In this document: in pieces, positions 6,337 through 59,402 of the stretch
Layout of the letters: each line of letters opens with the position of its first letter
How positions within the stretch are numbered: the stretch's first letter is position 1
DNA from: Brachybacterium nesterenkovii
Lineage (GTDB): Bacteria > Actinomycetota > Actinomycetes > Actinomycetales > Dermabacteraceae
Assembly (NCBI RefSeq): GCF_900163655.1
Contig: NZ_FWFG01000093.1
Location: forward strand, 1-59,402
Length of the DNA stretch: 59,402 nucleotides
Reading direction: 5' to 3'
Program-made: the position numbers and the translations under genes
Notes under the pieces: model-generated
The model's database searches: none
What the model saw: only the letters and a program-made list of their open reading frames with translations
Told to the model about the DNA's origin: nothing

Positions 6337-6373
6337 ACGACGCCGGCGGTCCCCGAGGGACCGCCGGCGTCGT
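6337..6373 (+). terminator. Intrinsic terminator after rpmE
   Basis: A perfect 17-bp stem (6337-6353 with 6357-6373) around a 3-nt loop, beginning 9 nt after the rpmE stop. No U-tract, but the stem strength and position make it a clear terminator candidate. Confidence 0.8.
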
Positions 6374-6554
6374 CGCATGTCCGGGGCCATCGTCGAGGAG
6401 CGTGCCGGCGACCGTGGTCGGACAGGTCTTCCGGCTCACCGGCCCCCGCCGTCGATCGAGCCGTCAGTCGACCGGCCCCGGACGGACCCCGTGGCCCACC
6501 GGCACCCGCACGCCCGTCGAACCGCACACCGCGACCGCATCAGGAGAGCAGAGC

Positions 6555-7643
6555 ATGGACGGTCTGGACGCCCTCGTCGCCGAGCACGAGCGCCTCGAGC
6601 GCGAGATGGCCGATCCCGACCTCCACGCCGATGCCGCCCGCGCCCGCCGCGTCGGCCGCCGCTACGCGGAGCTCACGCCGATCGTGCGCCTGCACCATGA
6701 GCTCGCCGGAGCGCGCGAGGATCTCGCGACCGCCCGCGAGCTGGGGGCGGACGATCCGGAGCTCGCCCGGGAGGCCGACGCCCTCGCCGCGCGCTGCGCC
6801 GAGATCTCCGGGGAGCTCGAGGAGCTGCTCGCCCCGCGCGACGTGGACGATGCCCGCGATGTGATCCTCGAGGTCAAGGCCGGGGCCGGGGGAGAGGAGT
6901 CCGCGCTGTTCGCCGCGGAGCTGCTGCGGATGTACCGCCACTACGCGACCGCCCGCGGCTGGGCCTTCGAGGTCCTCTCCTCGGCGGACTCCGAGCTCGG
7001 CGGGCTGCGCGACGCGGCCGTGTCGATCCGCGCGAAGGGCTCTCCCGCTCCCGCCGACGGCGTCTGGGCGCACCTGAAGTACGAGGGCGGCGTGCACCGG
7101 GTCCAGCGGGTGCCGGTGACCGAATCGGCCGGCCGCATCCACACCTCCGCCGTCGGCGTGCTGGTGATGCCCGAGGCCGATGAGGCCGACGAGGCCGAGG
7201 TCCTCGCCGAGGACATGGCCCCCGCGAACCTGCGCATCGACGTCTTCCGCTCCTCGGGTCCGGGCGGGCAGAGCGTCAACACCACCGACTCCGCCGTGCG
7301 TATCACCCACCTGCCCACGGGGATGGTCGTCTCCTGCCAGAACGAGAAGAGCCAGCTGCAGAACAAGGAGCAGGCCCTGCGGATCCTGCGCTCGCGCCTG
7401 CTGGACGCCCGCCGAGCCGCCCAGGACGCGGAGGCCGCCGCGGCCCGCCGCTCGCAGGTGCGCACCGTCGACCGCTCCGAGCGCATCCGCACCTACAACT
7501 TCCCGGAGAACCGGATCGCCGACCACCGCACCGGCTTCAAGGCCTCCAACCTCGACCAGGTCCTCGCCGGGGACCTCGGGCCCGTGATCCGCTCCGCCCA
7601 GGACGCCGATCGCGAGGCCATGCTGCGGGCGGCCGGCGCATGA
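6555..7643 (+). CDS. prfA: Peptide chain release factor 1
   Basis: Recognises UAA/UAG and triggers peptide release at the ribosome. 362 residues from ATG 6555, preceded by CAGGAG 8 nt upstream; an in-frame extension to 6402 lacks a ribosome site. The PVT tripeptide in [17 protein letters not shown] is the RF1-type stop-codon reader, and the catalytic GGQ is at residues 237-239 ([12 protein letters not shown]). The glutamine is the substrate of PrmC, encoded by the next gene, whose ATG overlaps the prfA stop (ATGA). Confidence 0.97.
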
Positions 7644-8644
7644 GCGAGCGCCAGGAGGGCGACCGGCGCGAGAGGGAGCACGCCGTGGCCGACGCAGCGG
7701 TGCCCGCCGCGGAGAGCACGGCGTCCGTTGCGCGCACGCGCCTGCGCGCGTCCCTGAGCGCGACCACCGAGCGCCTCGCGCGGGCGGGCATCGTCTCGGC
7801 GAGCGTCGAGGCCCGCGCCCTGCTCGAGCGCGCCGCCGCGGCGACGGGACCGCTCGTCCTCCTCGACGAGCTGCCCGAGGACTTCGATGCCGACCTCGAG
7901 GCACTCGTCGCCCGGCGCTGCGCGCGCGAGCCCCTGCAGCTGATCCTCGGCAGCGCCCCCTTCCGCCGCCTGCGGCTCGACGTCCGCCCGGGCGTGTTCA
8001 TCCCGCGCCCCGAGACCGAGGTCGCGATCGACGTCCTGCTCGAGCACGCGCGCTCGACGCGGGTGCGCCGCGTTGTGGACCTGTGCACCGGCAGCGGGGC
8101 GCTGGCCGCCGCCGTCGTCGACGAGCTGCCCGCCGCGGACGTCACGGCCGTCGAGATCGACCCGGCCGCCGTCGACCTCGCCGAGGAGAACCTGCGCCGC
8201 GCGCACCGCGACGGCGCGCCGGGCACGGCTCGCGTCCTGCGCGCGGACATCACGGATGCCGCGGCGCTCGCAGGGCTCCGCGGCATCGACGCGGTCATCT
8301 CCAACCCGCCCTACATCCCCGCCGACTGCGTCCCCACCGATCCCGAGGTGCTGCGCCATGACCCCGAGCGCGCCCTCTACGGCGGGGGAGCAGACGGCCT
8401 CGACCTGCCCCGCGCCGTGATCGCCCGCGCGTCTGAGATGCTCGTGGCCGGCGGCCTGCTGGTCATGGAGCACGCCGACGTCCAGGGGGAGGCGACGCGC
8501 GCGCTCGCCGAGGGCTCCGGCGCCTTCGCGGACGTCCGCACCGTGGCCGACCTCACGGGCCGCGATCGCTTCCTCGTGGCCGTGCGGCGCGAGGCTGGCG
8601 ATGCGTCCGATCCGATGTCGGGAAGTGGGAGACTGACCCGGTGA
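7640..8644 (+). CDS. prmC: Release factor glutamine methyltransferase
   Basis: SAM-dependent N5-methylation of the GGQ glutamine of release factors. 334 residues, about 45 longer than usual because of an Ala/Glu-rich N-terminus; an internal GTG near 7685 is an alternative start. Class I methyltransferase features are visible: [15 protein letters not shown] (SAM loop) and the catalytic SNPPYIP motif. ATGA overlap with prfA and GTGA overlap with the next gene indicate one operon prfA-prmC-tsaC. Confidence 0.93.
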
Positions 8645-9666
8645 GCGTCTACGACACCCAGAGCGAGAACACCCGCGACAAGGCCATCACCGCGGCCGTC
8701 GACGCGGTCCGTGCCGGCCAGCTGATCGTGCTGCCCACCGACACTGTGTACGGCATCGGCGCCGACGCCTTCGACGCGGAGGCGGTCGATGCGCTGCTGG
8801 CCGCCAAGGGCCGCGGGCGCAATGCGCCGCCGCCGGTGCTGGTGGGCGATCCCGCCGTGCTGATGGCCCTGGCCGTCGACGTCCCCGAGGACGCCGAGCG
8901 CCTCGCCGAGGAGTTCTGGCCCGGCCCGCTCACGCTCATTCTGACGGCCCAGCCGTCGCTGACCTGGGACCTGGGGGAGACCCGCGGCACCGTCGCCCTG
9001 CGCATGCCCGACGACGAGGTCGCGCTCGAGCTGCTGCGCCGCACCGGCCCCCTCGCCGTCTCGAGCGCCAACCGCCACGGCAAGGACGCCGCGCTCTCCG
9101 TCCTGGACGCCGCGACCCAGCTGGGCGACCACGTCGAGGTGTACCTCGACGGCGGCCCCGCGCGGCTGGGCACCGCCTCGACCATCATCGACATGACCGT
9201 CTCCCCGCCGGAGATCGTGCGCCAGGGAGCGCTCGAGCGCGAGACGATCGTCGCGGCGCTCGGCGACATCTTCGCCGCGCCGGAGCTGGAGCCCACCCCC
9301 GGTGAGGAGAGCACAGGGGAGAGCGCTGCGGACAGCGCAGGGGAGGGCGGCGAGACCGTCGCGGGTTCGACCGCCGCCGATCCCACTGCGACCGACGACA
9401 CTGCGACCGACCCCACAGCGGGCGAGACCGCGAGCGCCGGTGCGGGCCCGCTGGCCCTGCCCTCCGAGGCCGCGGGCGAGAGTGCGGGCGCCCCCGCCGA
9501 GCTCGATGGCGAGGCCTCCTCCGCTCCCGCCGCCGATGACGCCGATGAGGTCGCCGCCGAGGCCGTTCCCGATACTGATGCAGATGCCGCCGCCGCAACC
9601 GGGCCGGCGGATCCCGCGGGGGAGCCCGATGCCCCCGCTGACGGGGCCGGGCCCGCCACGGCGTGA
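8641..9666 (+). CDS. L-threonylcarbamoyladenylate synthase (Sua5/YciO/YrdC family) with long acidic tail
   Basis: Makes threonylcarbamoyl-AMP from threonine, bicarbonate and ATP for the t6A37 tRNA modification. Starts at GTG 8641, overlapping the prmC stop. The catalytic YrdC domain fills the first ~210 residues: LPTDTVYGIGADAF near the N-terminus, KGRGRNAPPPVLV and SSANRHGKDAALS are family motifs. The last ~130 residues are an Ala/Glu/Asp/Thr low-complexity extension with short internal repeats (TDDTATDPTAGETASAGAG) and no recognisable domain; a normal YrdC-only protein would end near residue 215. The order prfA-prmC-sua5-wecA matches the M. tuberculosis locus. Confidence 0.92.
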   Translation: MSVYDTQSENTRDKAITAAVDAVRAGQLIVLPTDTVYGIGADAFDAEAVDALLAAKGRGRNAPPPVLVGDPAVLMALAVDVPEDAERLAEEFWPGPLTLILTAQPSLTWDLGETRGTVALRMPDDEVALELLRRTGPLAVSSANRHGKDAALSVLDAATQLGDHVEVYLDGGPARLGTASTIIDMTVSPPEIVRQGALERETIVAALGDIFAAPELEPTPGEESTGESAADSAGEGGETVAGSTAADPTATDDTATDPTAGETASAGAGPLALPSEAAGESAGAPAELDGEASSAPAADDADEVAAEAVPDTDADAAAATGPADPAGEPDAPADGAGPATA

Positions 9667-10790
9667 GGATCTATCTCTTCCTGCTGCTCGTCGCCGCGGC
9701 CGTCACCTACCTCGTGACCCCGGCGGCGCGGCTGCTGGCGCGACGGCTCGGCGCCATGACGGCGGTGCGCTCGCGCGACGTCCACGACGCGGTCACCCCG
9801 CGTCTGGGGGGCGTGGCGATGCTCGCGGGCCTCATGGCGACGATGGCGGTGGCCAGCCGGGTCCCGTTCCTCGAGGGGCTGTTCCAGGAGAGCCGCCAGG
9901 CCTGGGCGATCCTCGCGGCGGGGACCCTGGTGTGCCTGGTCGGCGCCGCGGACGACAAGTGGGATCTCGACTGGGTCACCAAGCTCGCGGGGCAGACCCT
10001 CGCCGCCTTCCTCCTGGCCTGGCAGGGTGTGCAGCTGACGACGCTGCCGATCGCGGGCCAGGTGCTGCTGTCGCCCACGATGCTCCTGCTGCTGACCGTG
10101 CTCGTGGTGCTCGTGTCGATGAACGCCGTGAACTTCATCGACGGCCTCGACGGCCTCGCGGCCGGGGTCATGGCGATCGGCGGCACCGCCTTCTTCGTCT
10201 ACGCCTACGTGCTCACCCGCACCGCCGGCTCGACGACGGACTACTCCTCGCTCGCGGCGATGATCACGATCATCCTGGTCGGCATCTGCGTCGGCTTCCT
10301 CCCGCACAACCTCACCCGCGCTCGCGTGTTCATGGGCGACAGCGGCTCGATGCTGCTGGGCCTGCTGCTCGCGGCCTCGTCGATCACCGTCACCGGACGG
10401 ATCGACCCGGCGCGCCTCTCAGGCGCCGACCTGCTCGCCCAGCTGCTGCCGATCATGCTGCCGTTCGGCGTCATGTTCATCCCGTTCCTGGACTTCGCGC
10501 TCGCGGTCATCCGCCGCGTCGGCTCGGGCCGCTCCCCGTTCCACGCCGATGCGCTGCACCTGCACCACCGCCTCCTCGCGCTCGGGCACTCCAAGGCCCA
10601 CGCCGTGTGGATCATGTACCTGTGGTCCGTCGTGGTGTGCGTCGGGATGCTGCTGCCCGTGTGGGTGTCCCTGCGCATGTGCATCGCGTTCTGGGTGGTC
10701 GGTATCGTCCTGGCCCTGCTCATCACCTTCGCCCCCCGCATCCGCGGGAGGGTCGCCCGCCGTCCCGAGGAGACACGTGCCCGCACCTGA
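9663..10790 (+). CDS. Undecaprenyl-phosphate GlcNAc-1-phosphate transferase (WecA/Rfe/TagO family)
   Basis: Integral membrane polyprenyl-phosphate glycosyl-1-phosphate transferase that starts cell-wall glycopolymer or linker synthesis. 375 residues from GTG 9663, overlapping the preceding stop (GTGA). About ten or eleven hydrophobic segments. Signature sites: Asp pair in the LVGAADDKWDLDW segment, NFIDGLDGLAAG, MGDSGSMLLG and the HLHHRLLALG loop near the C-terminus. Its place between the sua5-like gene and the AtpI-like gene equals that of M. tuberculosis Rv1302 (wecA/rfe). The exact sugar-nucleotide substrate cannot be told from sequence. Confidence 0.9.
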   Translation: MRIYLFLLLVAAAVTYLVTPAARLLARRLGAMTAVRSRDVHDAVTPRLGGVAMLAGLMATMAVASRVPFLEGLFQESRQAWAILAAGTLVCLVGAADDKWDLDWVTKLAGQTLAAFLLAWQGVQLTTLPIAGQVLLSPTMLLLLTVLVVLVSMNAVNFIDGLDGLAAGVMAIGGTAFFVYAYVLTRTAGSTTDYSSLAAMITIILVGICVGFLPHNLTRARVFMGDSGSMLLGLLLAASSITVTGRIDPARLSGADLLAQLLPIMLPFGVMFIPFLDFALAVIRRVGSGRSPFHADALHLHHRLLALGHSKAHAVWIMYLWSVVVCVGMLLPVWVSLRMCIAFWVVGIVLALLITFAPRIRGRVARRPEETRART

Positions 10791-11307
10791 CCCCGCCGCG
10801 CCCCCGCCCGCTCCTGACGCTCGCGGGGATCGGACCGCCGGCTCCTCCGGTGCCGAGCCCACCGCCGCGGAGCTCACGGCGATCCGCGATCGCAGCGAGC
10901 GGGCGGCCGCGCGCAACGACGCGACGATGACCCGCGCGGTGCTCATCGCCATCGGCGCCGGTCTCGCGCTCGACGCCCTCGCGGTGGTCGCGGCCCTCCT
11001 CCTGGGCGGCCCCGGGGCGGTCCTCGGCGCGCTCGTCGGGACGGGCCTGGCGCTCGTCGTCACGCTCCCCACCCTCATCAGCGCCCGCGTGGGCATGCGG
11101 CAGGGACCCGCGGCCATGGCCGGCGTGGTGCTGGGCACCTGGCTGGCCAAGATGGTCGTGCTCATCGGCGTGCTCCTCTGGGTGCGCACGCTGGGCTCCA
11201 TCGCCCTGCCGTGGACCGGGTACGCCCTGCTCGTCGGAGCGGTCGCTCCGGCCGTCGTCGAGGCCGTCCTCCTGCTGCGCTCCCGACCGCGCCTCGAGGT
11301 GCGCTGA
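10777..11307 (+). CDS. AtpI-like membrane protein upstream of the ATP synthase operon
   Basis: 176 residues from GTG 10777, with GAGGAG 4 nt upstream; it overlaps the end of the wecA-type gene by 14 bp. The first ~45 residues are Pro/Ala-rich and likely cytoplasmic, followed by four hydrophobic segments (AVLIAIGAGLALDALAVV; AVLGALVGTGLALVV; AAMAGVVLGTWLAKMVVLIG; YALLVGAVAPAVVEAVLL). Position directly before atpB, size and topology fit the AtpI-like proteins of actinobacteria (cf. Rv1303), thought to help c-ring assembly. Sequence similarity to AtpI is weak in this family, so the role is inferred mostly from context. Confidence 0.75.
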   Translation: MPAPDPAAPPPAPDARGDRTAGSSGAEPTAAELTAIRDRSERAAARNDATMTRAVLIAIGAGLALDALAVVAALLLGGPGAVLGALVGTGLALVVTLPTLISARVGMRQGPAAMAGVVLGTWLAKMVVLIGVLLWVRTLGSIALPWTGYALLVGAVAPAVVEAVLLLRSRPRLEVR

Positions 11308-11325
11308 CACCCTGCGGACGGCGTC

Positions 11326-11352
11326 TGGACAGGGGCGTTCCTCTGCTATGCT
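11326..11352 (+). promoter_or_regulatory. Putative promoter of the atp operon
   Basis: TGGACA (11326-11331) and TATGCT (11347-11352) resemble -35 and -10 boxes; the 15-bp spacing is short (16 if CTGGAC is taken). It sits 18 bp after the AtpI-like gene and about 260 bp before atpB. Confidence 0.45.
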
Positions 11353-11424
11353 CGTCGGGCACGCAGCACGCAGGCGCTCGCACCTCGCAGTCCTGGCCCG
11401 TGGCGTACCCCTGACCCCCACCGA

Positions 11425-11455
11425 CGGGGCCTCCCACCGCTTCGCGGGAGCCCCG
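11425..11455 (+). promoter_or_regulatory. Hairpin in the atp operon leader
   Basis: CGGGGCCTCCC (11425-11435) can pair with GGGAGCCCCG (11446-11455) with one bulge and a 10-nt loop. It lies between the putative promoter and atpB and may affect leader RNA stability or act as an attenuator. The rest of 11308-11615 shows no gene. Confidence 0.4.
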
Positions 11456-11615
11456 CAGCGCCGTGCCGAGATCTCCTCGGCCCCGGTCCTCGGGGATCAG
11501 GCGGTGGCGACGATGCCGTCCGCAGGCGCTGCACCGTCCGCCCCGGCGGATCGCTGAGACGAAGACCGGCCGCCCCGTCGCCGAGGCGACGGGCCGACGA
11601 CCACGGGAGATCGAT

Positions 11616-12425
11616 CTGAACACCGTCGACGACGCGAACCTCCTCCTCGCCGAGGGGGGACTGGATTTCCACATCCCTTCGCTCTCCGAGTTCTTCCCCG
11701 ACGCGATCCTGTTCGCGGGGACGCCCTTCGAGTTCAACCGGGTCCAGCTGGTGCGGCTCATCGTCCTGGCCGTCGTGCTCATCACGATGTCCGTCGTCGC
11801 CGCGCGCGCCCGCCTGGTGCCCGGCAAGGCGCAGAGCATCGTCGAGCTCCTCATCGAGTTCGTGCACTCGAGCATCATCGAGAACACCCTGGGCATGCGC
11901 GAGGGCCGGAAGTTCGCCCCGATGCTCATCACGATGTTCTTCCTGATCTTCGCGATGAACCTCGCCGGCGTGATCCCGGGGCTCAACCTCGCGGGCACGT
12001 CCGTGATCGGCCTGCCGCTCCTGCTGGCGCTGTGGACCTTCGGCACCTACGTCTTCTTCGGCGTGAAGAAGCACGGTCTGGTCGGGTACCTCAAGCACGA
12101 GACGATGCCCCCCGGCGTGCCGAAGCCGATCTACCTGCTGCTGGTCCCGATCGAGTTCCTGCAGGTGGTCCTGATCCGCTGGGCCTCGCTCACGATCCGA
12201 CTGCTCGCCAACATGGTCGCCGGTCACATCATGCTCGTGGTGTTCATCGGGCTGACCCAGGCGATGCTGTTCTCCGGCAGCTGGCTCATCGCCGCCTCCC
12301 CGCTGGGCGGCGCCCTCGCCATCGGCATCTACGGCTTCGAGATGTTCGTCGCCGCGCTGCAGGCCTTCATCTTCACCATGCTCTCGGCCGTCTACATCCA
12401 GATGGCCACCTCCGACGAGCACTGA
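11616..12425 (+). CDS. atpB: ATP synthase Fo subunit a
   Basis: Membrane stator subunit that forms the two proton half-channels against the c-ring. The conserved part begins LNTVDDANLLLAEGG; the best-supported start is CTG 11616, with GGGAGA at 11605-11610, giving 269 residues, normal for the subunit. The frame stays open to GTG 11463, but those ~50 residues are Arg/Pro-rich leader translation with no family likeness. The essential Arg is in the SLTIRLLANMVAGHIML helix. A CTG start is unusual and not certain. Confidence 0.93.
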   Translation: MNTVDDANLLLAEGGLDFHIPSLSEFFPDAILFAGTPFEFNRVQLVRLIVLAVVLITMSVVAARARLVPGKAQSIVELLIEFVHSSIIENTLGMREGRKFAPMLITMFFLIFAMNLAGVIPGLNLAGTSVIGLPLLLALWTFGTYVFFGVKKHGLVGYLKHETMPPGVPKPIYLLLVPIEFLQVVLIRWASLTIRLLANMVAGHIMLVVFIGLTQAMLFSGSWLIAASPLGGALAIGIYGFEMFVAALQAFIFTMLSAVYIQMATSDEH

Positions 12426-12458
12426 CCCGTCCGGGGCCGAGCCCCTGACGCCCCCTGA

Positions 12459-12736
<278 letters not shown>

Positions 12737-48084: not shown

Positions 48085-48258
48085 ATGGCGACGACTACCG
48101 TCACCCCCAATGACCAGACCCCCTACCTCACCCTGCGGGAAGCCACCCGTCTCGGCTATGGCTCGGACACAACGCTGCGCAGGCGCATCAAGCAGGGCAC
48201 CTTGCCCGCAGTCAAGATCGGCTCGCGGCTCAGGGTGCTGCGACATGATCTGGGCTGA
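48085..48258 (+). pseudogene. Excisionase-like HTH_17 protein, truncated by IS DNA
   Basis: From ATG 48085 the frame encodes PYLTLREATRLGYGSDTTLR and RRIKQGTLPAVKIGSRLRVL, the DNA-binding core of an excisionase/MerR-type helix-turn-helix protein typical of integrative elements. It stops after 57 residues (LRHDLG) exactly where IS3-like end sequence begins (TGATGCGCGATCAAGTG at 48256). Normal members continue a little beyond this point. It suggests the insertion of an IS into the edge of an integrated element. It may still fold. Confidence 0.6.
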
Positions 48259-48348
48259 TGCGCGATCAAGTGTCAGCTGGGGTTATGCCGCCAGGCTGAC
48301 GGTCGGGTTCGTGATGGTCTCGTATTCGATGGGGATCAATCGGCCCAG
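48256..48348 (-). mobile_element. End and transposase tail of an IS3-type element
   Basis: On the minus strand, 48348 to 48283 reads LGRLIPIEYETITNPTVSLA followed by Ala and a stop, typical of the C-terminus of an IS3-family OrfB. It is followed by a terminal-looking sequence whose plus strand begins TGATGCGCGATCAAGTGTCA at 48256. The upstream part of this transposase is gone, replaced by the IS5-type fragment. Confidence 0.6.
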
Positions 48349-48735
48349 TCGGGCTTGTCGGCGGCGTCGAGTCCGCCCGGGCGGCCGCGTCGTGACCCGC
48401 GACGCTTGCGATGACCCTTCTGGTCGTCGGGTTCGGGGATCGCGGCCTTGATTCCACGGGAGCGCAGATGGCCGCGGATCGCGCGGGACGAGTACGCCTT
48501 GTCGGCGCGGACCGCCTCGGGTCGGGTGCGCGGTCTGCCGGTGTCGCGGCCGACGCGCAGGTGCGCCATCAGCGGCAGGAACATCGGCGAGTCCCCGGCC
48601 TGCCCGGGCGTGATCAGCGCGACCAAAGGGAGTCCGTTGCCGTCGACGAGCTGGTGGATCTTCGTCGACAGGCCCCCTCTGGAGCGGCCGATGCCGTGAT
48701 CAGGCGGCTCTCCCGCAGATTCTTGTAACTCGTTG
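48339..48735 (-). mobile_element. IS5-family transposase fragment
   Basis: A continuous minus-strand frame reads DHGIGRSRGGLSTKIHQLVD, GNGLPLVALITPGQAGDSPM, ADKAYSSRAIRGHLRSRGIK and KGHRKRRGSRRGRPGG, the middle of an IS5-family (IS427-like) DDE transposase. Both ends are missing: the upstream end joins IS3-element DNA near 48735, and the downstream end joins the IS3-type tail near 48345. The fragment keeps the DKAYSS region but lacks the C-terminal glutamate region. Confidence 0.8.
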
Positions 48736-48754
48736 CAGCCCCTGTGAGGCGCGT

Positions 48755-48778
48755 GGAGCCTGACCCGGTTTCCCGGAC
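48755..48778 (+). repeat. Left terminal inverted repeat of the IS3-family element
   Basis: Begins GGAGCCTGACCCGG and ends CCCGGAC; pairs with the right repeat at 49703-49726 with two mismatches. Confidence 0.85.
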
Positions 48779-48789
48779 GGTTCTTGTGT

Positions 48790-49420
48790 GTTGACCATGC
48801 CGCGATCTCGGCGGTGGTGTGAAGGGCTTCGTAGTCGCCGAGGCTGAGATTGCCGAGCGAGGTGTGCCGACGGGCGAGGCGATCCTGCCCATCGAAGCGA
48901 GGAGGCCGGCCTGGCGAAGCCGGTGCCCGAAGAGCCAGCTGGTGTATTGCACTCCTCGGTCCACGTGAACCACGGTTCCCGGTTCGGGGCGCCGCCGCCG
49001 GCGGGCCATCTCAAGCGCGTCGACGACGATCTCGGCAGTGACCCGGTCGCTGATCGACCAGCCGACGATGCGGCGGCTGAACGCGTCGATGACGGCGGCG
49101 CAGTAGACCCATCCGTCTCTCGAGCGATGCTGTGTGATGTCGCAGAACCAGAGCCGGTCGGGCGCGTCAGCGCGGAACTGCCGCTTCACGGGGTCCTCGT
49201 GCGTGGCGGTGTCGGGCGTCCAGCCGCGCCGCTTCCGGCGGTGCGAGACTCCGGCCAGCCCGCCCAGCCGTATCAGCCGCGCGTGGCGTGCTTGCGGCTG
49301 ACGTGAACGCCGAGCCCGAGCCGGAGCTCGGCGAGCACCCGCGGAGCACCGTAGGTTTCCCGCGAGTCAGAGTGGATCCGGCGCATCGTGGTCGTCGGTT
49401 CCGCATCCCCGATCACGCGC
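48790..49420 (-). pseudogene. IS3-family orfB (DDE transposase) pseudogene
   Basis: Reading the minus strand: MRRIHSDSRETYGAPRVLAE and LGLGVHVSRKHATRG in one frame; a shift near 49280; then ARLIRLGG-, SHRRKRRGWTPDTATHEDP, DRLWFCDITQHRSRDGWVYC (first catalytic Asp), VIDAFSRRIVGWSISDRV and VVHVDRGVQYTSWLF (second Asp). After LLASMGRI the sequence jumps, in another frame, to RRHTSLGNLSLGDYEALHTT, so the segment with the catalytic Glu is deleted. Clearly inactive. Confidence 0.8.
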
Positions 49421-49444
49421 CGTGACGGCGGCCGGCTCGCCCGT

Positions 49445-49687
49445 TCACCCGGTTTCGGCCCCGCAACTCGACGAGCTCCTTGTGCTCGTCGGTGGTGACC
49501 CGGCCTTGTCGCGGCCGGAGTCGACAGCGTCACGGTTCATCCAGTTCCGAAGGCAGGATTCGCTGATCCCGAGGTCACGCGCGGTCTGCGCATCGGGATT
49601 GCCCTGAGCAACAAGACCGAGGGCTCGACGCCGGAACTCCGGCGGGTGGGCAACAGGCACGTCACGGACTCCTTCCGAGACGATCAT
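49445..49687 (-). pseudogene. IS3-family orfA (HTH) pseudogene
   Basis: ATG 49687 (minus) opens a frame with PVAHPPEFRRRALGLVAQGN and ARDLGISESCLRNWMNRDAV, the HTH of an IS3 OrfA. A frame break near 49505 changes the expected VTTDEHKELVELRGRNR (visible in the other frame) to a Ser/Thr-rich nonsense tail. In intact IS3 elements OrfA and OrfB are joined by programmed frameshifting; this break is upstream of that site. Confidence 0.75.
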
Positions 49688-49702
49688 CGCCTCAAAGTCG
49701 GT

Positions 49703-49906: not shown

Positions 49907-49927
49907 GTGGAGTTGTAGCGACTCAGC
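49907..49927. promoter_or_regulatory. HAIR-like inverted repeat upstream of the hsp20 remnant
   Basis: GAGT-N7-ACTC with core GAGTTGTAGCGACTC at 49910-49924. The HspR-associated inverted repeat consensus is CTTGAGT-N7-ACTCAAG; each half-site here matches five of seven bases with the right spacing. It ends 20-odd bp before the hsp20 ATG. The stretch 49727-49906 shows no gene. Confidence 0.4.
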
Positions 49928-49947
49928 GTAAATGTGGAAGTGGTGAG

Positions 49948-50406
49948 ATGGTGATCTCACGTGCGGACCTGCGCATCGCTCAGCAGATGGAAACGCGCTC
50001 GATGTCGGTCGATCCGTCCCGAGAGGGCGACGAGTACGTTCCTGAGGCGAACCTGCTAGGCATCGACTCGGAGTCCATCGAGCTGGGTGGGCGGCCAGCC
50101 GATCACCGTCCGCGCGGTGAGCGGCCCAGTCCGCGACCGCCGGCGCTAAGTGGTTCACCGCCGAACGGCCCCCAGGGGCAATTCATGCGGTTGCTGGGCC
50201 CGGCGCCGGGCATCGACAGCGACAGCGTCACCGCCAGCTGCGACCTGGGCACCCTGCGGGTGGTGATGCCCATCGAGCAGCCCGCCGTCCGGAAAGATCC
50301 CCGAGAAGCAGCCTGCTTCCTGACTTTGGGCACTCAGCCCTGCGCCTGCGCCGATCCTGGCGCGCTCTTTGACGACCCCTGTAACGTTTATCGCATGACA
50401 AGATGA
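49948..50406 (+). pseudogene. Hsp20/alpha-crystallin small heat-shock protein pseudogene
   Basis: From ATG 49948 the frame reads METRSMSVDPSREGDEYVPE and LLGIDSESIEL, matching the start of an Hsp20 domain. Then homology moves to a second frame (VGGQPITVRAVSGPVRDRRR), to a third (AKWFTAERP), and back to the first for GQFMRLL and GIDSDSVTASCDLGTLRVVM, PIEQPAVRK, the end of the domain. So at least three small indels, roughly balanced, have scrambled the middle while the outer frame stays open to 50406. It lies directly upstream of dnaK, where small heat-shock genes are found in stress islands. A protein could be made but would have a ruined beta-sandwich centre. Confidence 0.75.
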
Positions 50407-50460
50407 CAAGATCCGACGACCTCTGTAACGTGTCTTACGTAACGTGCCTCACGTGACAGG
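50369..50460 (+). promoter_or_regulatory. dnaK upstream region with short repeats
   Basis: Contains TTGACG (50369-50374), CTGTAACGT twice (50379-50387 and 50423-50431), ATGACAAG twice in tandem (50395-50410) and the palindrome TTACGTAA (50435-50442). A promoter and a regulator site are expected here, but I cannot place a -10 with confidence, and no CIRCE or full HAIR element is seen. Confidence 0.35.
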
Positions 50461-50475
50461 AAAGGAACGACCATC

Positions 50476-52341
<1,866 letters not shown>

Positions 52342-52359
52342 CACGGAGGGAGGATCGCG

Positions 52360-52899
52360 ATGGTCGAGGAGCAGAACGAGGACACGCGGGCCGTGGACCT
52401 GCTGAACGACGACCTCACCGACGTGTCCCCGGAGGAGCTCCGCGCCGCGCAAGCAGCGGTCGCCTCCCAGTTGGAGACGGCCGAGGACCGGTGGCGCCGG
52501 GCGGCGGCGGACTACGACAACCTCCGCAAACGGACGGCGCGCGAGATCCAGACCGTCCGCGAGCAGGAGCGGCGGCACACCGCCAAAGCCTTCTTGCCCG
52601 TCGTCGACGGGCTGGACCGGGCGCTCAGCTTCGGGATGGACCTTGACGAGGGCGTTCTGGGTGGCATGCAGTCCGTCCGGGCGCAGGCCGCTGATGCGTT
52701 GCGCGCACTCGGGTACCCCGAGATTGTCACCGACGGTGCTGAGTTCGACCCGCAGCTGCACGAGGCGGTCTCGGTCGTCGAGGATGCCAGCGTCCCGCCG
52801 CGCAGCATCCTCGCCGTCACTCGCTCCGGGTTCGGAACGCCTGAGCGGATGCTGAGACCGGCTGCGGTCGTGGTCACCCGCAAGCCGGAGGAGGAGTAG
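52360..52899 (+). CDS. grpE: Nucleotide exchange factor GrpE
   Basis: Releases ADP from DnaK. 179 residues from ATG 52360 with GGAGGGAGG (52345-52353) upstream. N-terminal helix region with AEDRWRRAAADYDNLRKRTA, then the family motif VVDGLDRALSFGMD and the C-terminal beta-wing (DGAEFDPQLHEAVSVV; GFGTPERMLRPAAVVV). 18 bp separate it from dnaK, and only 3 bp from dnaJ. Confidence 0.95.
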   Translation: MVEEQNEDTRAVDLLNDDLTDVSPEELRAAQAAVASQLETAEDRWRRAAADYDNLRKRTAREIQTVREQERRHTAKAFLPVVDGLDRALSFGMDLDEGVLGGMQSVRAQAADALRALGYPEIVTDGAEFDPQLHEAVSVVEDASVPPRSILAVTRSGFGTPERMLRPAAVVVTRKPEEE

Positions 52900-52902
52900 G
52901 AG

Positions 52903-53775
52903 ATGGCGGAGGATCTCTACAGCGTGCTAGGGGTCTCCCGGTCGGCGGATCAGAAGGAGATCCGCCGCGCCTACCGGGAGAAGGCCCGCAAGTTCCACCC
53001 GGACGTCAACAAGACCCCGGGGGCGGAGGAGACCTTCAAACGGATCAGTGAAGCCCACGATGTGCTGTCGGACCCGGAAACGCGCTCACAGTACGACCGG
53101 TTCGGTGAGAACTTCCGGCAGTACGCCGCCGCGGACGCGGCTCGCTCCTCCGAGCAGCCGCGCCGCAGCGGCGGGACCCGATACACGTGGAGCGGGGGCG
53201 GCGCGCAGAGCGTGAACTGGGAGGACCTCTTCGGGGGCGGCTTCGGTGGTTTCGGTCGCGGCGCCGACCGCACCGCGGAGCTGGAGATCACGGTCGAGGA
53301 GGCCTACCGGGGCGGGCGGCGCACGGTGCAGGTCGCGTCCCCGTACGGCGGCGCGCAGGAGTACACCATCGACATCCCAGCGGGCGCTGTCGACGGGCAG
53401 CGGTTGCGAATCGCGGGCGCCGACGGACAGGACGGGGACCTGCTGGTCACGCTGCGCGTGAAGGACAGCAAGCGGTACCGGCTCAGCGGCGCGGACATCG
53501 AAACGGACCTTCCCATCTCACCGTGGGAGGCGGCGCTGGGCGCGGATGTCAGCATGCCCACCCCCGGAGGCCCGGTCACCGTGCACGTTCCGCCCGGCTC
53601 GTCCACTGACAGGCGGCTCCGCCTGCGCGGGCAGGGGATGCCGCGCAGGGGACAGCCGGGAGACCTGTATGCGCGGGTGAAGGTCGTCGTTCCCCGCACT
53701 CTCAGCAAGAAGGAGAGGAAGCTGTTCGAACAGCTCCGCGACGAATCGTCGTTTGATGCCAGGAGAGGATCATGA
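52903..53775 (+). CDS. dnaJ: DnaJ co-chaperone of the CbpA type (no zinc finger)
   Basis: Hsp40 that delivers substrates to DnaK and stimulates its ATPase. 290 residues: J domain 1-70 with HPD at 32-34 (KFHPDVNKTPG), a Gly/Ser/Arg linker (WSGGGAQSVNWEDLFGGGFG), and two C-terminal substrate-binding domains (RTAELEITVEEAYRGGRRTV; YTIDIPAGAVDGQRLRIAG; HVPPGSSTDRRLRLRGQGMP). The CxxCxGxG zinc repeats of full DnaJ are absent, which places it with CbpA. The next gene encodes a CbpM-like protein, the known modulator of CbpA. Its stop overlaps that gene's ATG. Confidence 0.95.
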   Translation: MAEDLYSVLGVSRSADQKEIRRAYREKARKFHPDVNKTPGAEETFKRISEAHDVLSDPETRSQYDRFGENFRQYAAADAARSSEQPRRSGGTRYTWSGGGAQSVNWEDLFGGGFGGFGRGADRTAELEITVEEAYRGGRRTVQVASPYGGAQEYTIDIPAGAVDGQRLRIAGADGQDGDLLVTLRVKDSKRYRLSGADIETDLPISPWEAALGADVSMPTPGGPVTVHVPPGSSTDRRLRLRGQGMPRRGQPGDLYARVKVVVPRTLSKKERKLFEQLRDESSFDARRGS

Positions 53776-54083
53776 CCTCACATCACCTGCCCGTCCGTGT
53801 CGCCCGGGCCGACCTGACGGCGACCGCGGTGGCCGCAGGTATCCACCCGGATACGCTGCGGAAGTTCGTCGAGCTGGGGCTGGTCACCGCCCACGTCGAC
53901 ACCAGCGGCCGGCTGTGGTTCGCCCGTACCGTCCCCGCCCGCGTGCACACCATCGTGCGTCTGCACTCCGATCTTGCCGTGAACTACGCCGGCATTGCAC
54001 TCGTGCTCGACCTGCTCGCCCGCATCGAGCAGCTCGAGCAGCACCGGACCATCCGACTTGAAGGAGACACCCCATGGACATGA
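53772..54083 (+). CDS. MerR_2-type chaperone modulator (CbpM-like; HspR relative)
   Basis: 103 residues, ATGA overlap with dnaJ. MerR-like [23 protein letters not shown] then [19 protein letters not shown], and a helical tail [20 protein letters not shown]. Size and place after a CbpA-type DnaJ fit CbpM, which binds the J domain and inhibits it. HspR, the MerR-family heat-shock repressor of actinobacteria, is related and also sits in dnaK operons, so DNA-binding autoregulation is possible; the HAIR-like site near 49910 would be a target. Its last codons overlap clpB. Confidence 0.8.
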
Positions 54084-56701
54084 ACTCACTCACTCAGAAG
54101 TCGCAGGAAGCGCTCACCTCGGCCCAGAGCATCGCGGTCCAGGCCGGTCAGATCGAAACGGACGAGGAGCATCTCCTGCTCGCACTGCTGCAGCAGGAGG
54201 AGGGGCTGGTTCCCCGACTGCTGCAGACAGCAGGTGCTGACGTGGAAGCGGTACGCGCCGACGTCGAAGCGGAGATCGCCCGCAAGCCCAGCGTCTCCGG
54301 GTCCTCCCCGCAGACCGGTCAGGTGTACGTGAGCCGCAGCCTCACCTCCACCCTGGAACGGGCGGAGCGGGAGGCAAAGCGGTTGAAAGACTCCTACATC
54401 TCCGTGGAGCATCTCGTTCTGGCCCTCGTCGACGACTCCTCCAACCGTCCCGCGTCCCGCGTGCTGCGCGGGCACGGTGTCACCCGGGAGAGCTTCCTCA
54501 GCGCACTCACCAAGATCCGCGGCAACCAGCACGTCAACTCCGCCACCCCCGAGCAGACGTACGAGGCGTTGGCGAAGTACGGCCGTGACCTGGTCGCTGA
54601 CGCCCGGTTGGGCAAGCTTGACCCGGTCATCGGGCGTGATGCGGAGATCCGCCGGGTCATCCAGATCCTCTCCCGCAAGACCAAGAACAACCCCGTCCTC
54701 ATCGGCGAGCCCGGTGTCGGAAAGACCGCCATCGTGGAGGGCCTTGCCCAGCGGATCTTGAGTGAGGACGTGCCCGAGGGCCTTCGCGACAAGACCGTGT
54801 TCTCGCTGGATCTGTCTGCCCTGGTCGCCGGCGCGAAGTACCGGGGCGAGTTCGAGGAGCGAATGAAGGCAGTCCTGGCGGAAGTGAAGGCAGCGGAGGG
54901 ACGCATCCTGCTGTTCATCGACGAGCTGCACACCCTGGTGGGGGCGGGAGCCACCGAAGGGGCGATGGACGCCGGCAACATGCTCAAGCCGATGCTCGCC
55001 CGCGGGGAGCTGCACCTCATCGGTGCCACCACCCTCGATGAGTACCGCAAGCACATCGAGAAGGACGCTGCCCTGGAACGCCGGTTCCAGACGGTGATGG
55101 TCGAGGAACCAGACGTGGAGGACGCGATTTCCATCCTCCGCGGCCTGCGCGAACGGCTGGAGGTTTTCCACGGTGTCCGCATCCAGGACAGCGCACTGGT
55201 CGCTGCCGCCGTGCTGTCCCACCGATACATCACCGACCGGTTCCTGCCCGACAAGGCCATCGACCTCATCGACGAAGCCTGCGCGCGTCTGCGAACCGAG
55301 ATCGACTCAATGCCCGCTGAGCTCGACGAGCTGACCCGGCGGGTGACCCGCCTGGAGATCGAGGAAGCGGCGCTGTCGAAGGAAACGGACCCTGCCAGCA
55401 AAAAACGGCTGGAGGAGCTGCGCCGGGAACTGGCCGACCTGAAGGCGGAGGCGGACTCCAAGCGCGCCCAGTGGGAAGCGGAGCGTCAAGCGATCCGCAA
55501 GGTCCAGGAGCTGCGCGGTGAGCTGGAGCGGCTGCGGCGGGAGGCGGAGGAAGCGGAGCGCTCCTACGACCTCAATCGTGCCGCTGAACTGAGGTACGGG
55601 GCTATCGCTGACGTGGAACGACGCCTGCGCGCCGAGGAGGAGCGTCTCACCTCCAAACAAGGCGGGCAGCGGCTGCTGCGGGAGGTGGTCACCGAGGACG
55701 AGATCGCCGAGATCGTCGCAGCATGGACGGGGATCCCCGTGGCCCGGCTGAAGGAAGGTGAACGCGACAAGATCCTCAGCCTGGAAGCCACCCTCAAGGA
55801 GCGGGTGGTCGGTCAGGATGAGGCCATCACGCTCGTCAGCGACGCGATTATCCGTGCCCGCTCCGGCATCCGCGACCCGCGCCGACCCATCGGCTCGTTC
55901 ATCTTCCTCGGCCCCACCGGAGTGGGAAAGACCGAACTGGCCAAAGCGCTCGCGCAAGCACTGTTCGACAGCGAGTCGGCGATGGTCCGGCTGGACATGA
56001 GCGAATACCAGGAACGTCACACCGTCAGCCGGCTCGTCGGTGCACCTCCCGGGTATGTCGGGTACGAGGAGGGAGGGCAGCTGACCGAGGCGGTGCGCCG
56101 CCGCCCGTACAGCGTGGTCCTTTTCGACGAGATCGAGAAAGCGCACCCGGACGTGTTTAACACGCTGCTGCAGGTCCTCGACGACGGCCGCATCACCGAC
56201 AGCCAGGGACGCACCGTCGACTTCCGCAACACCATCCTCATCATGACCTCCAACATCGGTGCCCATCACTTGTTGGGCCTCGATGGCGGCTCGATCCCCG
56301 ACGACGTGCGAAACAGTGTGCTCGGTGAGTTGCGCGCCCACTTCCGTCCCGAGTTCCTCAACCGGGTGGACGACATCGTGGTGTTCTCGCCGCTGGGTCG
56401 TGAACAGATCCAGGACATTGTGGAGCTGCAGTTCAACGACCTGCGCTCCCGGCTGGCCGAGCGTCAGATCCGCATCGAGCTGACGCCCGCGGCACGCCAG
56501 CTCATCGCCGAACGCGGCTACGACCCCGTGTACGGTGCGCGTCCGCTGCGACGCTACATCAGCCATGAGATCGAGACCCGGCTGGGTCGTGCGCTGCTGA
56601 GCGGGCAAGTGATGGACGGGTCGACGGTCACGCTGGACGTGCAGGACGGCGACCTCGTCTTCAACATCGCAGCGCCCGCCGAAGAGGAGGACGCGGGGTG
56701 A
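54074..56701 (+). CDS. clpB: Disaggregase ClpB (Hsp100)
   Basis: Hexameric AAA+ unfoldase that works with DnaK to dissolve aggregates. 875 residues from ATG 54074, with GAAGGAG 7 nt upstream; ATG 54080 is also possible. N-domain 1-150 ([20 protein letters not shown]), NBD1 with Walker A GEPGVGKT at 211-218, the coiled-coil M-domain (about 410-520: [40 protein letters not shown]) which separates ClpB from ClpC/ClpA, NBD2 with Walker A GPTGVGKT at 613-620. No ClpP-binding loop is evident. It overlaps the genes on both sides. Confidence 0.97.
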
Positions 56702-57152
56702 GCGCGATTGTGACCTGCCCCAACTGCGCGAAGAAGAGAACCGTGTCCGCGCCGCCGCATCGGGGTACCCGCGCTGCGGCTTCTGCAAGAGCGCCGTGCC
56801 GTGGATCGTCGATGCGGGCGATGCGGACTTCGCCGAGGTGGTCGAGCAGGCCCCGCAAGTGGTGCTCGTGGACTTGTGGGCGACCTGGTGCGGACCGTGC
56901 CGGATGGTCAGCCCCGCCCTCGAGAAGGTCGCCACGGAACGTGCCGGCAAGCTCAAGCTGGTGAAAGTGGACGTGGACGCCGCACCGGAGACGGCCCGCA
57001 AGTTCTCCGTCCAAACGGTGCCGACCCTGCTCATCCTCAACCAAGGGAACGTGCTCTCCCGCCAGTCCTGAGCCGCCCCGCCGGACGGGCTGCGGCGCTG
57101 GGTGGACGAGGCGCTGCAGAAGAAGGCAGATTCGGCAGGCGGTGCCCCATGA
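56698..57152 (+). pseudogene. Thioredoxin (TrxC type) pseudogene, frameshift plus premature stop
   Basis: Begins at GTG 56698, overlapping the clpB stop. The N-terminal zinc-finger start VTCPNCAKK is in one frame; near 56737-56739 the frame shifts, and the rest (GYPRCGFCKSAVPWIVDAGD, then the thioredoxin fold with VLVDLWATWCGPCRMVSPAL, WCGPC active site, and VQTVPTLLILNQGNVLSRQ) follows in another. A TGA at 57069-57071, where family members have Gly, ends it early; the same frame continues as PPDGLRRWVDEALQKKADSA to a stop that overlaps the next ATG. A GTG at 56796 could restart a 91-residue thioredoxin lacking the last helix. Confidence 0.85.
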
Positions 57153-57409
57153 GGTACGTCGACCCACACGTCCCGCTCATCCCCCCGGTCCGTCCCCGCA
57201 CGCCGGGGGAGTGTGTGGACTGTGTGGCCGCGGGTGCGCGGTGGCTGCACCTGCGGGTGTGTCGCACCTGCGGGAAGGTCGGCTGCTGCGACTCCTCCCC
57301 GATGCGGCACGCTCGCACGTATGCGCTCACGGCGGGGCACCCCATCGTGCGGTCGCTGGAGCTGGGGGAGAACTGGAGCTGGTGCTACGTGGACGAAGCG
57401 TACCTATGA
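57149..57409 (+). CDS. UBP-type zinc finger protein
   Basis: 86 residues from ATG 57149 (ATGA overlap with the old thioredoxin end). It is little more than one zf-UBP domain: ECVDC (Cys22, Cys25), RVCRTCGKVGCCD (Cys38, Cys41, Cys46/47), RHARTYALTAGHP (His54, His64) and the WSWCYVDEAY strand (Trp78) that in eukaryotic UBP fingers lines the pocket for the ubiquitin Gly-Gly tail. Bacterial stand-alone versions are known by sequence but lack a proven ligand. Linked by overlaps to the redox genes on both sides. Confidence 0.9.
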   Translation: MRYVDPHVPLIPPVRPRTPGECVDCVAAGARWLHLRVCRTCGKVGCCDSSPMRHARTYALTAGHPIVRSLELGENWSWCYVDEAYL

Positions 57410-59118
57410 GTGACACGCCCGCCGCCAACCGCCGCCAGGTCGCTCAGGCCGAGACGCCTGACACCATCGGCGCCTTCCCGCGGCTCAGCGACGAGCAGAT
57501 CGCGGTGTTGCTCGTACGAGGGCAGCGCCGCACACTCACCGACGGGGAGGTTCTCATCCGGCCCGGCGAGCACCCGTCCTCCCTCTATGTCGTCCTGGAA
57601 GGGCACCTGCTGACGGTGGACACCGAACCTGCGGCGGATCCGCGTCACCGCGATGAGCCGTTGGCGGTCGGGGTGCACGGCCGCGGCCGGTTCGTGGGGG
57701 ATGTCGGGCTGCTGGAAGGACAGCCGTCTTTCGTACTCGTCTCCGCCATCGGCGCCGCCGAGGTGATGGAGGTGCCCGTCGACGAGCTGGAGGCCATCGT
57801 CACCTCTGACCCGCTGTCGGGTGAGATCATCCTGCGGGCCTTCCTCATCCGCCGCTCCCTGGCCATCGGGGCGGGAGCGGGCCTGCGGATCGTCGGCTCC
57901 TGCTTCTCCCCGCAGACCCGGGATCTGCTGGACTTCATCGTACGAAACCGGCTGCCCCACCGGCTGGTGGACCTGGATAAGGACGAGAAAGCGGAGCGGC
58001 TGGTCCGCCAGCTCGGCGCCACCGTCGCCGACTTCCCGCTGGTGATCCTCGGCGGCTCACGCACCGTTCTGGGTGCCACCCCGGCACGGCTCGCCGAAGA
58101 GTTGGGGATGCGCCCGCCCGCCCCACCGGCCACCTGCGATGTGGTGGTCGTCGGCGCTGGGCCGGCTGGTCTTGCCGCGGCGGTGTACGCAGCCTCTGAC
58201 GGGTTGTCGGTCCACCTGTGCGACGCGGTCGCCACCGGCGGGCAGGCGGGAACATCATCGAAGATCGAGAACTATCTGGGGTTTCCCGCCGGAATCTCCG
58301 GCACTGAGCTCGCCGAGCGCAGCCTCCTGCAAGTGCGCAAGTTCGGTGCCACGTTGGACATCCCGACCACGCTCCAGGAGGTCGTGGAGGATGAGGACCG
58401 CTTCCGGGTGATCTTCGAAGATGGCAGGGAGGTCACCTCCGATGTGGTGGTCCTTGCCACCGGAGTGCGATACCGCTCGCTTCCCGCCGCGGGGCTGGAC
58501 CGGTTCGAGACCTCGGACGTGTTCTACGCGGCAACAGCGCAGGAAGCGCGGATGTGCGTAGACACACCTGTCGCTGTTGTCGGCGGCGGCAACTCCGCCG
58601 GCCAGGCCGCGCTGTTTCTTGCCCGCACGTCCCCCCGTGTGCACCTTGTGGTGCGCGCCGCGGACCTGGGAGCGGGAATGTCCAGATACCTGGTGGACCA
58701 GATCCAACATCACCCCCGTATCAACGTGCTGCTGTCCTCGGAGGTCGTGGAAGCACACGGCGGCAACCGTTTGGAAGCGGTCACAGTCCGTCACGGTGAC
58801 GTGCTGAAGAAGCTCCGCGCGGGGCACGTGTTCGTCTTCATCGGCGCCGCTCCGGCGACGACGGGATTGAAGGTCGATGTGGCACGCGATCCTGACGGGT
58901 ACATCCTCACCGGCGCGGAGGCGGAGTTGGCCGGCGCGGGGACGGAAGGAAGCCCCCGCTTCTCTTTGGAAACCACCATCCCCGGGGTCTTCGCTATCGG
59001 CGATGTGCGGCACGGGTCTGTGAAGCGAATGACCTCGGCTGTGGGTGAGGGCGCCAGTGTGGTCCGGCAGATCCACGAGTACCTGAACGAGGGTCGTCAC
59101 AGTCGGGTGCGCGCATGA
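57406..59118 (+). CDS. cNMP-binding / glutaredoxin-like / thioredoxin-reductase-like fusion
   Basis: 570 residues from ATG 57406 (ATGA overlap). Residues ~20-160: cyclic-nucleotide-binding fold (FPRLSDEQIAVLLVRGQRRT; VLIRPGEHPSSLYVVLEGHL; GRFVGDVGLLEGQPSFV). Residues ~165-240: thioredoxin-like segment with a single Cys (RIVGSCFSPQTRDLLDFIV; FPLVILGGSRTVL). Residues ~248-565: TrxR-like flavoprotein with FAD motif VGAGPAGLAAA (from 250), GGQAGTSSKIENYLGFPAGI, NADPH motif VVGGGNSAGQAA (from 393), and FAD/NAD end AIGDVRHGSVKRM. The CxxC of thioredoxin reductase is missing; only Cys384 is near that place. So it may be a sensor-gated NADPH oxidoreductase, not a classical TrxB. Confidence 0.9.
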   Translation: MSDTPAANRRQVAQAETPDTIGAFPRLSDEQIAVLLVRGQRRTLTDGEVLIRPGEHPSSLYVVLEGHLLTVDTEPAADPRHRDEPLAVGVHGRGRFVGDVGLLEGQPSFVLVSAIGAAEVMEVPVDELEAIVTSDPLSGEIILRAFLIRRSLAIGAGAGLRIVGSCFSPQTRDLLDFIVRNRLPHRLVDLDKDEKAERLVRQLGATVADFPLVILGGSRTVLGATPARLAEELGMRPPAPPATCDVVVVGAGPAGLAAAVYAASDGLSVHLCDAVATGGQAGTSSKIENYLGFPAGISGTELAERSLLQVRKFGATLDIPTTLQEVVEDEDRFRVIFEDGREVTSDVVVLATGVRYRSLPAAGLDRFETSDVFYAATAQEARMCVDTPVAVVGGGNSAGQAALFLARTSPRVHLVVRAADLGAGMSRYLVDQIQHHPRINVLLSSEVVEAHGGNRLEAVTVRHGDVLKKLRAGHVFVFIGAAPATTGLKVDVARDPDGYILTGAEAELAGAGTEGSPRFSLETTIPGVFAIGDVRHGSVKRMTSAVGEGASVVRQIHEYLNEGRHSRVRA

Positions 59119-59252
59119 GCTCCGACATCCAGGGACACCTGACGCTGCACGCCGCCCCGAACCCGGCAGCCGTGGGAGAACCCGCGGATCCACCGGTGGC
59201 CCATGCGGGCGTAGCGGGCGAGATCCGCTCGACGTTGCGTCGGATGAGGTAG
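59115..59252 (+). CDS. Short ORF after the reductase gene (doubtful)
   Basis: 45 residues from ATG 59115, overlapping the reductase stop by ATGA as every other gene in this operon does: MSSDIQGHLTLHAAPNPAAV then GEPADPPVAHAGVAG. Ends at a TAG in 59250-59252. It may be the start of a once longer gene or a remnant. The final 150 bp (59253-59402) show no gene I can support; a minus-strand frame runs off the window end. Confidence 0.3.
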   Translation: MSSDIQGHLTLHAAPNPAAVGEPADPPVAHAGVAGEIRSTLRRMR

Positions 59253-59402
59253 TTTCGCCGCATGCCGGTGCTGCATATCGCCGAGGAACGCGGCGAGTGC
59301 CCGACGGTGCTACGGCACGCTATCGCGTCCTCGTCGGTGACGTTTGACGGCTCTTCACAGATGAGGGTGTAGCGGTCGATGGCGGTGTGGGCGCGTCGGT
59401 CC

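Follow-up and report, generated by a model that had tools for sequence, protein, structure and literature searches.

The transmissible locus of stress tolerance (tLST) of Proteobacteria is, in the account of PMC8290217, a mobile island of xenologous proteostasis genes that unites Hsp20, a disaggregase and thioredoxin around a dna-hsp20-clpG core, with IS3 or IS5 among its flanking elements. For Actinomycetota, a figure legend in PMC5644110 names a 'heat shock island' in Propionibacterium freudenreichii JS9 and JS20; this was the one paper that we found, in the literature searched, with an actinobacterial island of such a kind. Here we describe an island in a 59,402-nucleotide contig of Brachybacterium nesterenkovii (NZ_FWFG01000093.1; this whole stretch is called the window below), in which an intact dnaK-grpE-dnaJ-CbpM/DafA-like-clpB operon at 50476-56701 stands between a degenerate hsp20 and a redox tail of thioredoxin, UBP zinc finger and thioredoxin reductase (TrxR)-like flavoprotein genes. 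We read it, with a probability of roughly three in four, as a horizontally acquired accessory proteostasis operon whose core would provide a second disaggregation machine and whose hsp20 and redox tail are eroding in this genus.

By the description in that legend, the content of the P. freudenreichii island is similar to that of the present operon, and the legend names no redox tail. The same order as in the window, dnaK-grpE-dnaJ-cbpM-clpB-trx-UBP-flavoprotein, is found on pDK2 of Rhodococcus DK17 (locus L012), in Nocardia farcinica (L013) and on p1 of Streptomyces angustmyceticus (L015), with ClpB proteins 75.5-77.1% identical to that of the island. In these three the thioredoxin gene is open, a YflT-domain gene leads in place of hsp20 and, in two of them, DUF1931 follows, whereas hsp20 and thioredoxin are broken in the window. 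Plasmid relatives also resemble the tLST in lying near FtsH, trypsin-like protease or PsiE genes. Unlike the tLST core, the present island combines ClpB with its own DnaK, GrpE and DnaJ, and ClpG works without DnaK; the tLST is a functional parallel, but one with ClpG/ClpK. A preliminary description of this DNA had called it a counterpart of the heat-resistance islands. This holds in that it is a mobile, xenologous actinobacterial island, but fails for the ClpK/ClpG type: the ClpG and ClpK models of NCBIfam score 788 and 783 bits against cutoffs of 1900, the ClpB model is above its cutoff, and a ClpK/ClpG identity was rejected.

In Thermus, the operon runs dnaK-grpE-dnaJ-dafA-clpB, and the dnaK-clpB genes are part of the core set of the genus. 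The DnaK-DnaJ-DafA system of Thermus thermophilus, as described in PMC3727329, joins a J protein without a zinc finger to a small assembly factor, as the island appears to do; the island modulator is likened to DafA by profile match, and the island proteins may form a similar complex. In the present case, a complete DnaK-ClpB system that includes its J protein and modulator moves among Actinomycetota on plasmids and chromosomes.

Layout and acquisition of the operon

The features are as follows, in window coordinates, with the strand in brackets.

50476..52341 (+), dnaK, accessory copy, 621 amino acids; Pfam HSP70 at E 4e-251, NCBIfam model above cutoff
52360..52899 (+), grpE, 179 amino acids; Pfam GrpE
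52903..53775 (+), dnaJ of CbpA type, 290 amino acids, without zinc finger; Pfam DnaJ and DnaJ_C only
53772..54083 (+), putative CbpM/DafA-like modulator of MerR fold, 103 amino acids; Pfam MerR_2 at 54.6 bits, matches to CbpM/DafA structures
54074..56701 (+), clpB of an accessory clade, 875 amino acids; TIGR03346 at 1349 bits against a cutoff of 1232, and tree
56698..57131 (approximate; +), broken thioredoxin gene, of zinc-ribbon type in relatives; frame change and stop against relatives
57149..57409 (+), UBP zinc finger, 86 amino acids, Tyr at residue 58; Pfam zf-UBP, alignment
57406..59118 (+), flavoprotein with cyclic nucleotide-binding (CNB), glutaredoxin (Grx)-like and TrxR-like parts, 570 amino acids, without CxxC and with a family-invariant Cys384; Pfam, alignment of 90, AlphaFold2 model
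49990..50295 (approximate; +), degenerate hsp20 remnant; tblastn E 9.5e-10, Pfam HSP20 E 0.08; common to genome G017
48330..49690 (approximate; -), insertion sequence (IS) remnants at the left border of the island; Pfam PF00665 (rve) and PF01527 (transposase HTH), with an IS5-type fragment by DNA match to an IS5 transposase
59115..59252 (+), short open reading frame (ORF), 45 amino acids; overlaps the flavoprotein stop

The genes named in the preliminary description, including the complete set of DnaK, GrpE, CbpA-type DnaJ and ClpB, are in place by Pfam, which finds HSP70, GrpE, DnaJ with DnaJ_C, MerR_2 and the ClpB N, AAA, lid and D2-small domains in the core and thioredoxin, zf-UBP, cNMP_binding and Pyr_redox_2 in the tail; it lists no zinc-finger domain for the island DnaJ. 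The overlapping stops and starts reported there occur at five junctions (dnaJ/cbpM, cbpM/clpB, clpB/thioredoxin start, UBP/flavoprotein and flavoprotein/next ORF), and both genes said to be broken are so. The hsp20 remnant, whose Pfam match is under cutoff, is matched in the tblastn comparison by the intact Hsp20 encoded ahead of dnaK in locus L134, and the WCGPC motif survives in one frame of the thioredoxin remnant.

A second dnaK and clpB, the presence of which the preliminary description had proposed to check, were both found in the same genome on contig C94, where they match the island DnaK and ClpB at 57% and 56%. Behind the C94 dnaK lie grpE and dnaJ (from translations) and a gene for HspR, at 146.9 bits against a curated cutoff of 105. 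The contrary picture, a sole dnaK-clpB locus in a conserved core position, was also checked, and the outcome favoured acquisition. A further Clp ATPase of this genome (contig C86, 6541-8931; L020) is 48-54% identical to parts of the island ClpB; it reaches no NCBIfam model at cutoff, ClpB being the best at 993 against 1232 bits.

Of 47 genomes of the family, 3 have the island ClpB, the own genome among them (G000, G012 and G017, of the same genus; E <= 1e-300), a lower bound, as at most 20 first-look candidates were scored per genome. Window positions 49920-59309 are 97.0% identical in DNA to G017 and positions 50289-58665 are 96.5% identical to G012, against 83% (G017) and 86% (G012) for the core clpB. 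Apart from a 77-base piece in G012, the flanks of the island cannot be aligned with either genome, a mismatch that rests on the left side because the right flank in the window is just 93 bases. The lower GC content that had been reported is seen in dnaK-clpB, at 67.1% against 73.0% for positions 1-47700; the far left of the window, with F1 ATP synthase subunits at 14-18 kb, looks chromosomal. GC content at third codon positions is 0.884 for the island dnaK, 0.844 for its clpB and 0.818 for the flavoprotein gene, compared with 0.973 and 0.968 for the core dnaK and clpB. The left border holds the IS remnants and the excisionase-like ORF that had been described. Taken together, the second copies, the patchy spread, the gap between island and core identity, the third-position GC content and the IS remnants indicate that the island most likely moved recently between species, in line with its earlier description as acquired. 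On the right side, the final 80 bases find a match in three Rhodococcus plasmids, in a stretch without annotation. Integration at a tRNA gene was considered and rejected, as no tRNA gene lies in the window or in loci L016, L017, L010 and L050.

Distribution among Actinomycetota

By gene content and ClpB phylogeny, the island belongs to an operon type that is widespread in actinobacteria and has a ClpB clade to itself. The operon occurs on plasmids of Rhodococcus, Nocardia, Gordonia, Streptomyces and Arthrobacter (19 records, ClpB identity of at least 72%); six of these records were inspected, and four contain thioredoxin and flavoprotein genes, three of the four with an annotated UBP finger too. 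ClpB at 73% identity or more was found in 6 of 396 genomes of a phylum sample, own included (next listed match, 62%), and 40 accessory clpB loci were found in 39 of 394 genomes of a class sample, own included (69-100% identity; next listed, 62%). Two candidates were scored per genome in both scans, and the counts are lower bounds. Within the accessory clade ClpB identity is 69-78%, against at most 62% for the next listed matches in the 394 class genomes. In a tree of 53 ClpB rows, the 28 accessory rows form one clade with a support of 100/100, in which the window groups with G017 and G012, then with Diaminobutyricibacter and then with an Arthrobacter plasmid. The partial or shorter ClpB hits of L020, L051 and L059 were omitted from the tree. 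The ClpB proteins of L062 and L132 are identical, and rows, those of the thioredoxin count below included, are therefore not all independent.

The flavoprotein (E <= 1e-110) was found 34 times in 33 genomes of the class sample, again a lower bound, with three candidates scored per genome. It lies within 10 kb of the accessory clpB at 27 of the 40 clpB loci, 18 times no more than 1.5 kb downstream on the same strand; counted in reverse, a clpB is near 27 of the 34 flavoproteins. Among the best 80 loci of a flavoprotein scan of named genomes, 16 contain the whole or partial operon, all in Actinomycetota by record title, and 11 of these have a UBP finger. The order of clpB, UBP finger and flavoprotein is recurrent in actinobacterial genomes and plasmids, as had been anticipated. 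At 14 of the other 64 loci, a UBP finger lies near the flavoprotein without the operon, and the UBP-flavoprotein partnership therefore also exists outside the chaperone operon; some contigs in this comparison end early. By record titles, the bacterial UBP fingers next to such a TrxR-like flavoprotein come from at least five phyla among these best 80 loci.

Some copies show other arrangements. In L060, an Acidimicrobiia metagenome-assembled genome (MAG), thioredoxin comes right before the flavoprotein at 9491-11614 in a fetched stretch without clpB; thus, the thioredoxin-flavoprotein pair also occurs alone. In L057, an Actinomycetes MAG, two flavoproteins of the family, at 1853-3487 and 11375-12637, flank one operon; the second is encoded on the other strand and truncated where the contig stops. 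The plasmid copies L010-L014 have further stress genes in their flanks, namely FtsH, trypsin-like protease, mechanosensitive channel, PsiE, universal stress and YflT ('general stress') genes.

The chaperone core and its proposed modulator

The operon most likely functions as a spare DnaK-ClpB disaggregation machine. Judged by the families of its proteins, the J protein would hand aggregated clients to DnaK, ClpB would thread clients out of aggregates and GrpE would reset DnaK; the MerR-fold protein would restrain or assemble the J protein-DnaK pair, and not act as an HspR-type repressor. A benefit under heat or oxidant stress may follow from these activities. The three sister copies (window, G017 and G012) are a natural experiment, in which a retained chaperone core can be compared with a decaying redox tail. 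All five chaperone ORFs are open in each copy. Between the window and G017, the ratio of non-synonymous to synonymous substitution rates (dN/dS) is 0.11 for dnaK, 0.21 for clpB and 0.63 for the flavoprotein gene, and for dnaK and clpB it stays at 0.11-0.32 over the three pairs of copies.

CbpM is described in PMC4063869 as binding the J domain and blocking DnaK, and its kinship with HspR is described there as well. The island modulator is read as a CbpM/DafA-like protein modulator, for which a role as repressor is possible. Its profile matches include the CbpM structure 3ucs (E 3.1e-9) and DafA (9dvi, E 2.1e-5), and the J protein without zinc finger adjoins this CbpM-fold gene as in the CbpA/CbpM pair. 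In about 260 bases scanned upstream of dnaK, none of 29 loci had a match to the HspR-associated inverted repeat (HAIR) above the best of 50 shuffles. One SigH-like string occurs in the 29 upstream regions, and HspR control was rejected on these results.

Damage to the redox tail and the families of its proteins

Judged by reading frames and conserved residues, none of the three sister copies has an undamaged redox tail. The thioredoxin gene is an open frame in 24 of 30 operon loci, absent in 3 and broken in 3, the last being the copies of this genus; it is thus open in all 24 other loci that have the gene and in 0 of the 3 copies here, where 'open' means one frame spanning at least positions 9-143 of a 152-position model, judged without start codons. 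The lesions differ: the window has a frame change near the start of the gene and a premature stop, G017 a stop and the loss of one base, and G012 a stop. In the UBP finger, two residues are each His in all but one of 34 sequences: residue 58, which is Tyr in the window (the bacterial structure 2ida and USP16 also have His there), and residue 64, which is Gln in G017. The G012 flavoprotein ends after about 420 residues, and a pair of IS3-type transposase ORFs (HTH_Tnp_1; rve and HTH_21) starts about 40 bases further. On this pattern, redox coupling appears to be an ancestral feature that is eroding in this genus. The ancestral operon would have had a holdase (hsp20) and the redox tail attached to the chaperones, and both would have become dispensable here, with the core kept. 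Other homologues in the genome, a thioredoxin on contig C26 (33% identity) and a TrxR on C82 (30%), may explain why the tail could become dispensable.

The flavoprotein aligns with solved TrxRs at positions of about 241-566 (PDB profile match, best E 9.6e-53), matches that cover the FAD and NAD(P) domains of the TrxR fold; its score with TIGR01292 is 196.6 bits, under the cutoff of 343. At the dithiol site, CAIC of a solved TrxR faces AATA. Across 90 aligned flavoproteins, the CxxC position has Cys in 0 of 90 rows at the first column and in 1 of 90 at the second; the L095 protein has a CxxC formed with Cys384 itself, a residue present in all 90. Cys166, in the Grx-like part, is found in 17 of the 27 clpB-linked flavoproteins and in 0 of the 63 others. 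The rows come from 94 loci, of which L010, L014 and L134 are without a flavoprotein and L075, with a split frame, fell under the score limit.

The preliminary description had seen a fusion of cNMP, Grx and TrxR parts and called it a cNMP-gated flavoprotein. The fusion is retained as cNMP_binding, Pyr_redox_2 and an alpha/beta unit in the structural model, but its Grx-like middle part is without a Pfam match. The AlphaFold2 model, used for domain layout only (mean predicted local distance difference test score 85.3), has a CNB part rich in beta structure, a small alpha/beta unit and a TrxR-like part. For the cNMP domain, the matches are CRP-type and kinase domains, in which an Arg of the phosphate-binding cassette contacts the cyclic phosphate. 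Of the 89 flavoproteins that have a residue at the aligned column, 0 have this Arg; 16 have an Arg at the preceding residue, and one of these is among the 27 clpB-linked rows. Because the cassette Arg is absent, a cNMP-gated reductase is unsupported, and the family, which also lacks the TrxR dithiol, may use other ligands or chemistry.

The UBP finger scores 40.2 bits with Pfam zf-UBP (cutoff 22.7) and has 2ida as its best match (E 5.2e-33). All 34 sequences share its Cys46-Cys47 pair, where USP16 has Cys-Gly. The UBP-flavoprotein pair of the relatives looks like an unstudied enzyme pair and a novel part of the system: the literature searched contained no paper combining 'UBP', 'cyclic nucleotide-binding domain' and 'thioredoxin reductase', and no description of the chemistry of a dithiol-free TrxR-like flavoprotein family. 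In intact relatives the two might act as a novel redox relay fed by NAD(P)H, with electrons passing through Cys384 either to Cys46-Cys47 in the finger or to the thioredoxin of the operon, so as to reduce oxidised clients on DnaK-ClpB, a proposal that we consider rather doubtful. If it were true, a ubiquitin-type finger would act as a redox partner in bacteria. The tail in any case points to a TrxR-like flavoprotein family without dithiol, the chemistry of which is directly testable.

Alternative readings

Several points weigh against the main reading, of a spare disaggregation machine with an eroding tail. The dN/dS of grpE is 1.2 between the window and G017 (14 non-synonymous and 4 synonymous changes) and exceeds 1 in two of the three pairs of copies, and thus purifying selection is not seen for every chaperone gene. 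The modulator scores higher with the HspR model of NCBIfam (43 bits, cutoff 105) than with the CbpM model (38 bits, cutoff 138), both far under cutoff, and it can be aligned with the HspR of this genome (35% over 79 positions), so that it may act as a repressor. The HAIR scan reached just some 260 bases before dnaK, and the promoter may be further upstream where yflT leads. The flavoprotein ORF is open in two of the three copies (window and G017), and the tail may therefore keep some use. Locus L059, a Streptomyces MAG, shows the reversed pattern at 4983-9223, with clpB in two frames, grpE partial, dnaK not detected and thioredoxin, UBP finger and flavoprotein open, where an assembly error is possible. 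Finally, three close copies are a small sample.

The open flavoprotein frames, together with the frequent position of this gene close to the accessory clpB (27 of 40 loci, 18 of them with the gene no more than 1.5 kb downstream), would suit a working heat and oxidant resistance island, in which the UBP finger and flavoprotein supply the disaggregase with reducing power and another thioredoxin of the cell, such as the homologue on C26, substitutes for the broken one. The preliminary description leaned this way in treating the finger and reductase as working parts of the machine. We consider this unlikely for the present genus: thioredoxin is broken in three of three copies, a conserved UBP histidine is changed in two and the flavoprotein is cut in one, and the flavoprotein has no TrxR dithiol.

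The damage could instead extend to the whole island, which would then be a functionless, decaying passenger with chaperones that are open merely because transfer was recent. The broken hsp20 and thioredoxin, the grpE ratios and the IS remnants at the border fit such a course. It is nonetheless unlikely, given the dN/dS of 0.11-0.32 for dnaK and clpB in all three pairs and the five open chaperone frames in each copy, set against a thioredoxin broken in every one. The gene order, with a MerR-fold gene in the place of hspR, might suggest the ordinary dnaK-grpE-dnaJ-hspR operon that serves actinobacteria as their core heat-shock operon. That reading is refuted by the hspR-bearing core operon and core clpB elsewhere in the genome, and the low HspR score of the modulator, the J protein without zinc finger and the patchy distribution leave it next to no credence.

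Further features of the locus

The excisionase-like ORF ahead of the IS remnants (48085-48258, 57 amino acids) matches HTH_17 just above cutoff, at 29.4 against 27 bits. The 45-amino-acid ORF at 59115-59252 is 98% identical in G017, and its sole other match among the fetched loci has an E of 0.79; it is either the start of a lost next gene or a chance frame. Within the island, the patch at 57093-57293, which covers the end of thioredoxin and most of the UBP gene, differs from the other two copies at 24 and 30 of its 200 bases. For most other stretches of 200 bases the number is 0-13, and the stretch before dnaK differs by 22 of 180 from G017. By this density of differences, the patch looks like the result of recombination with a more distant copy.

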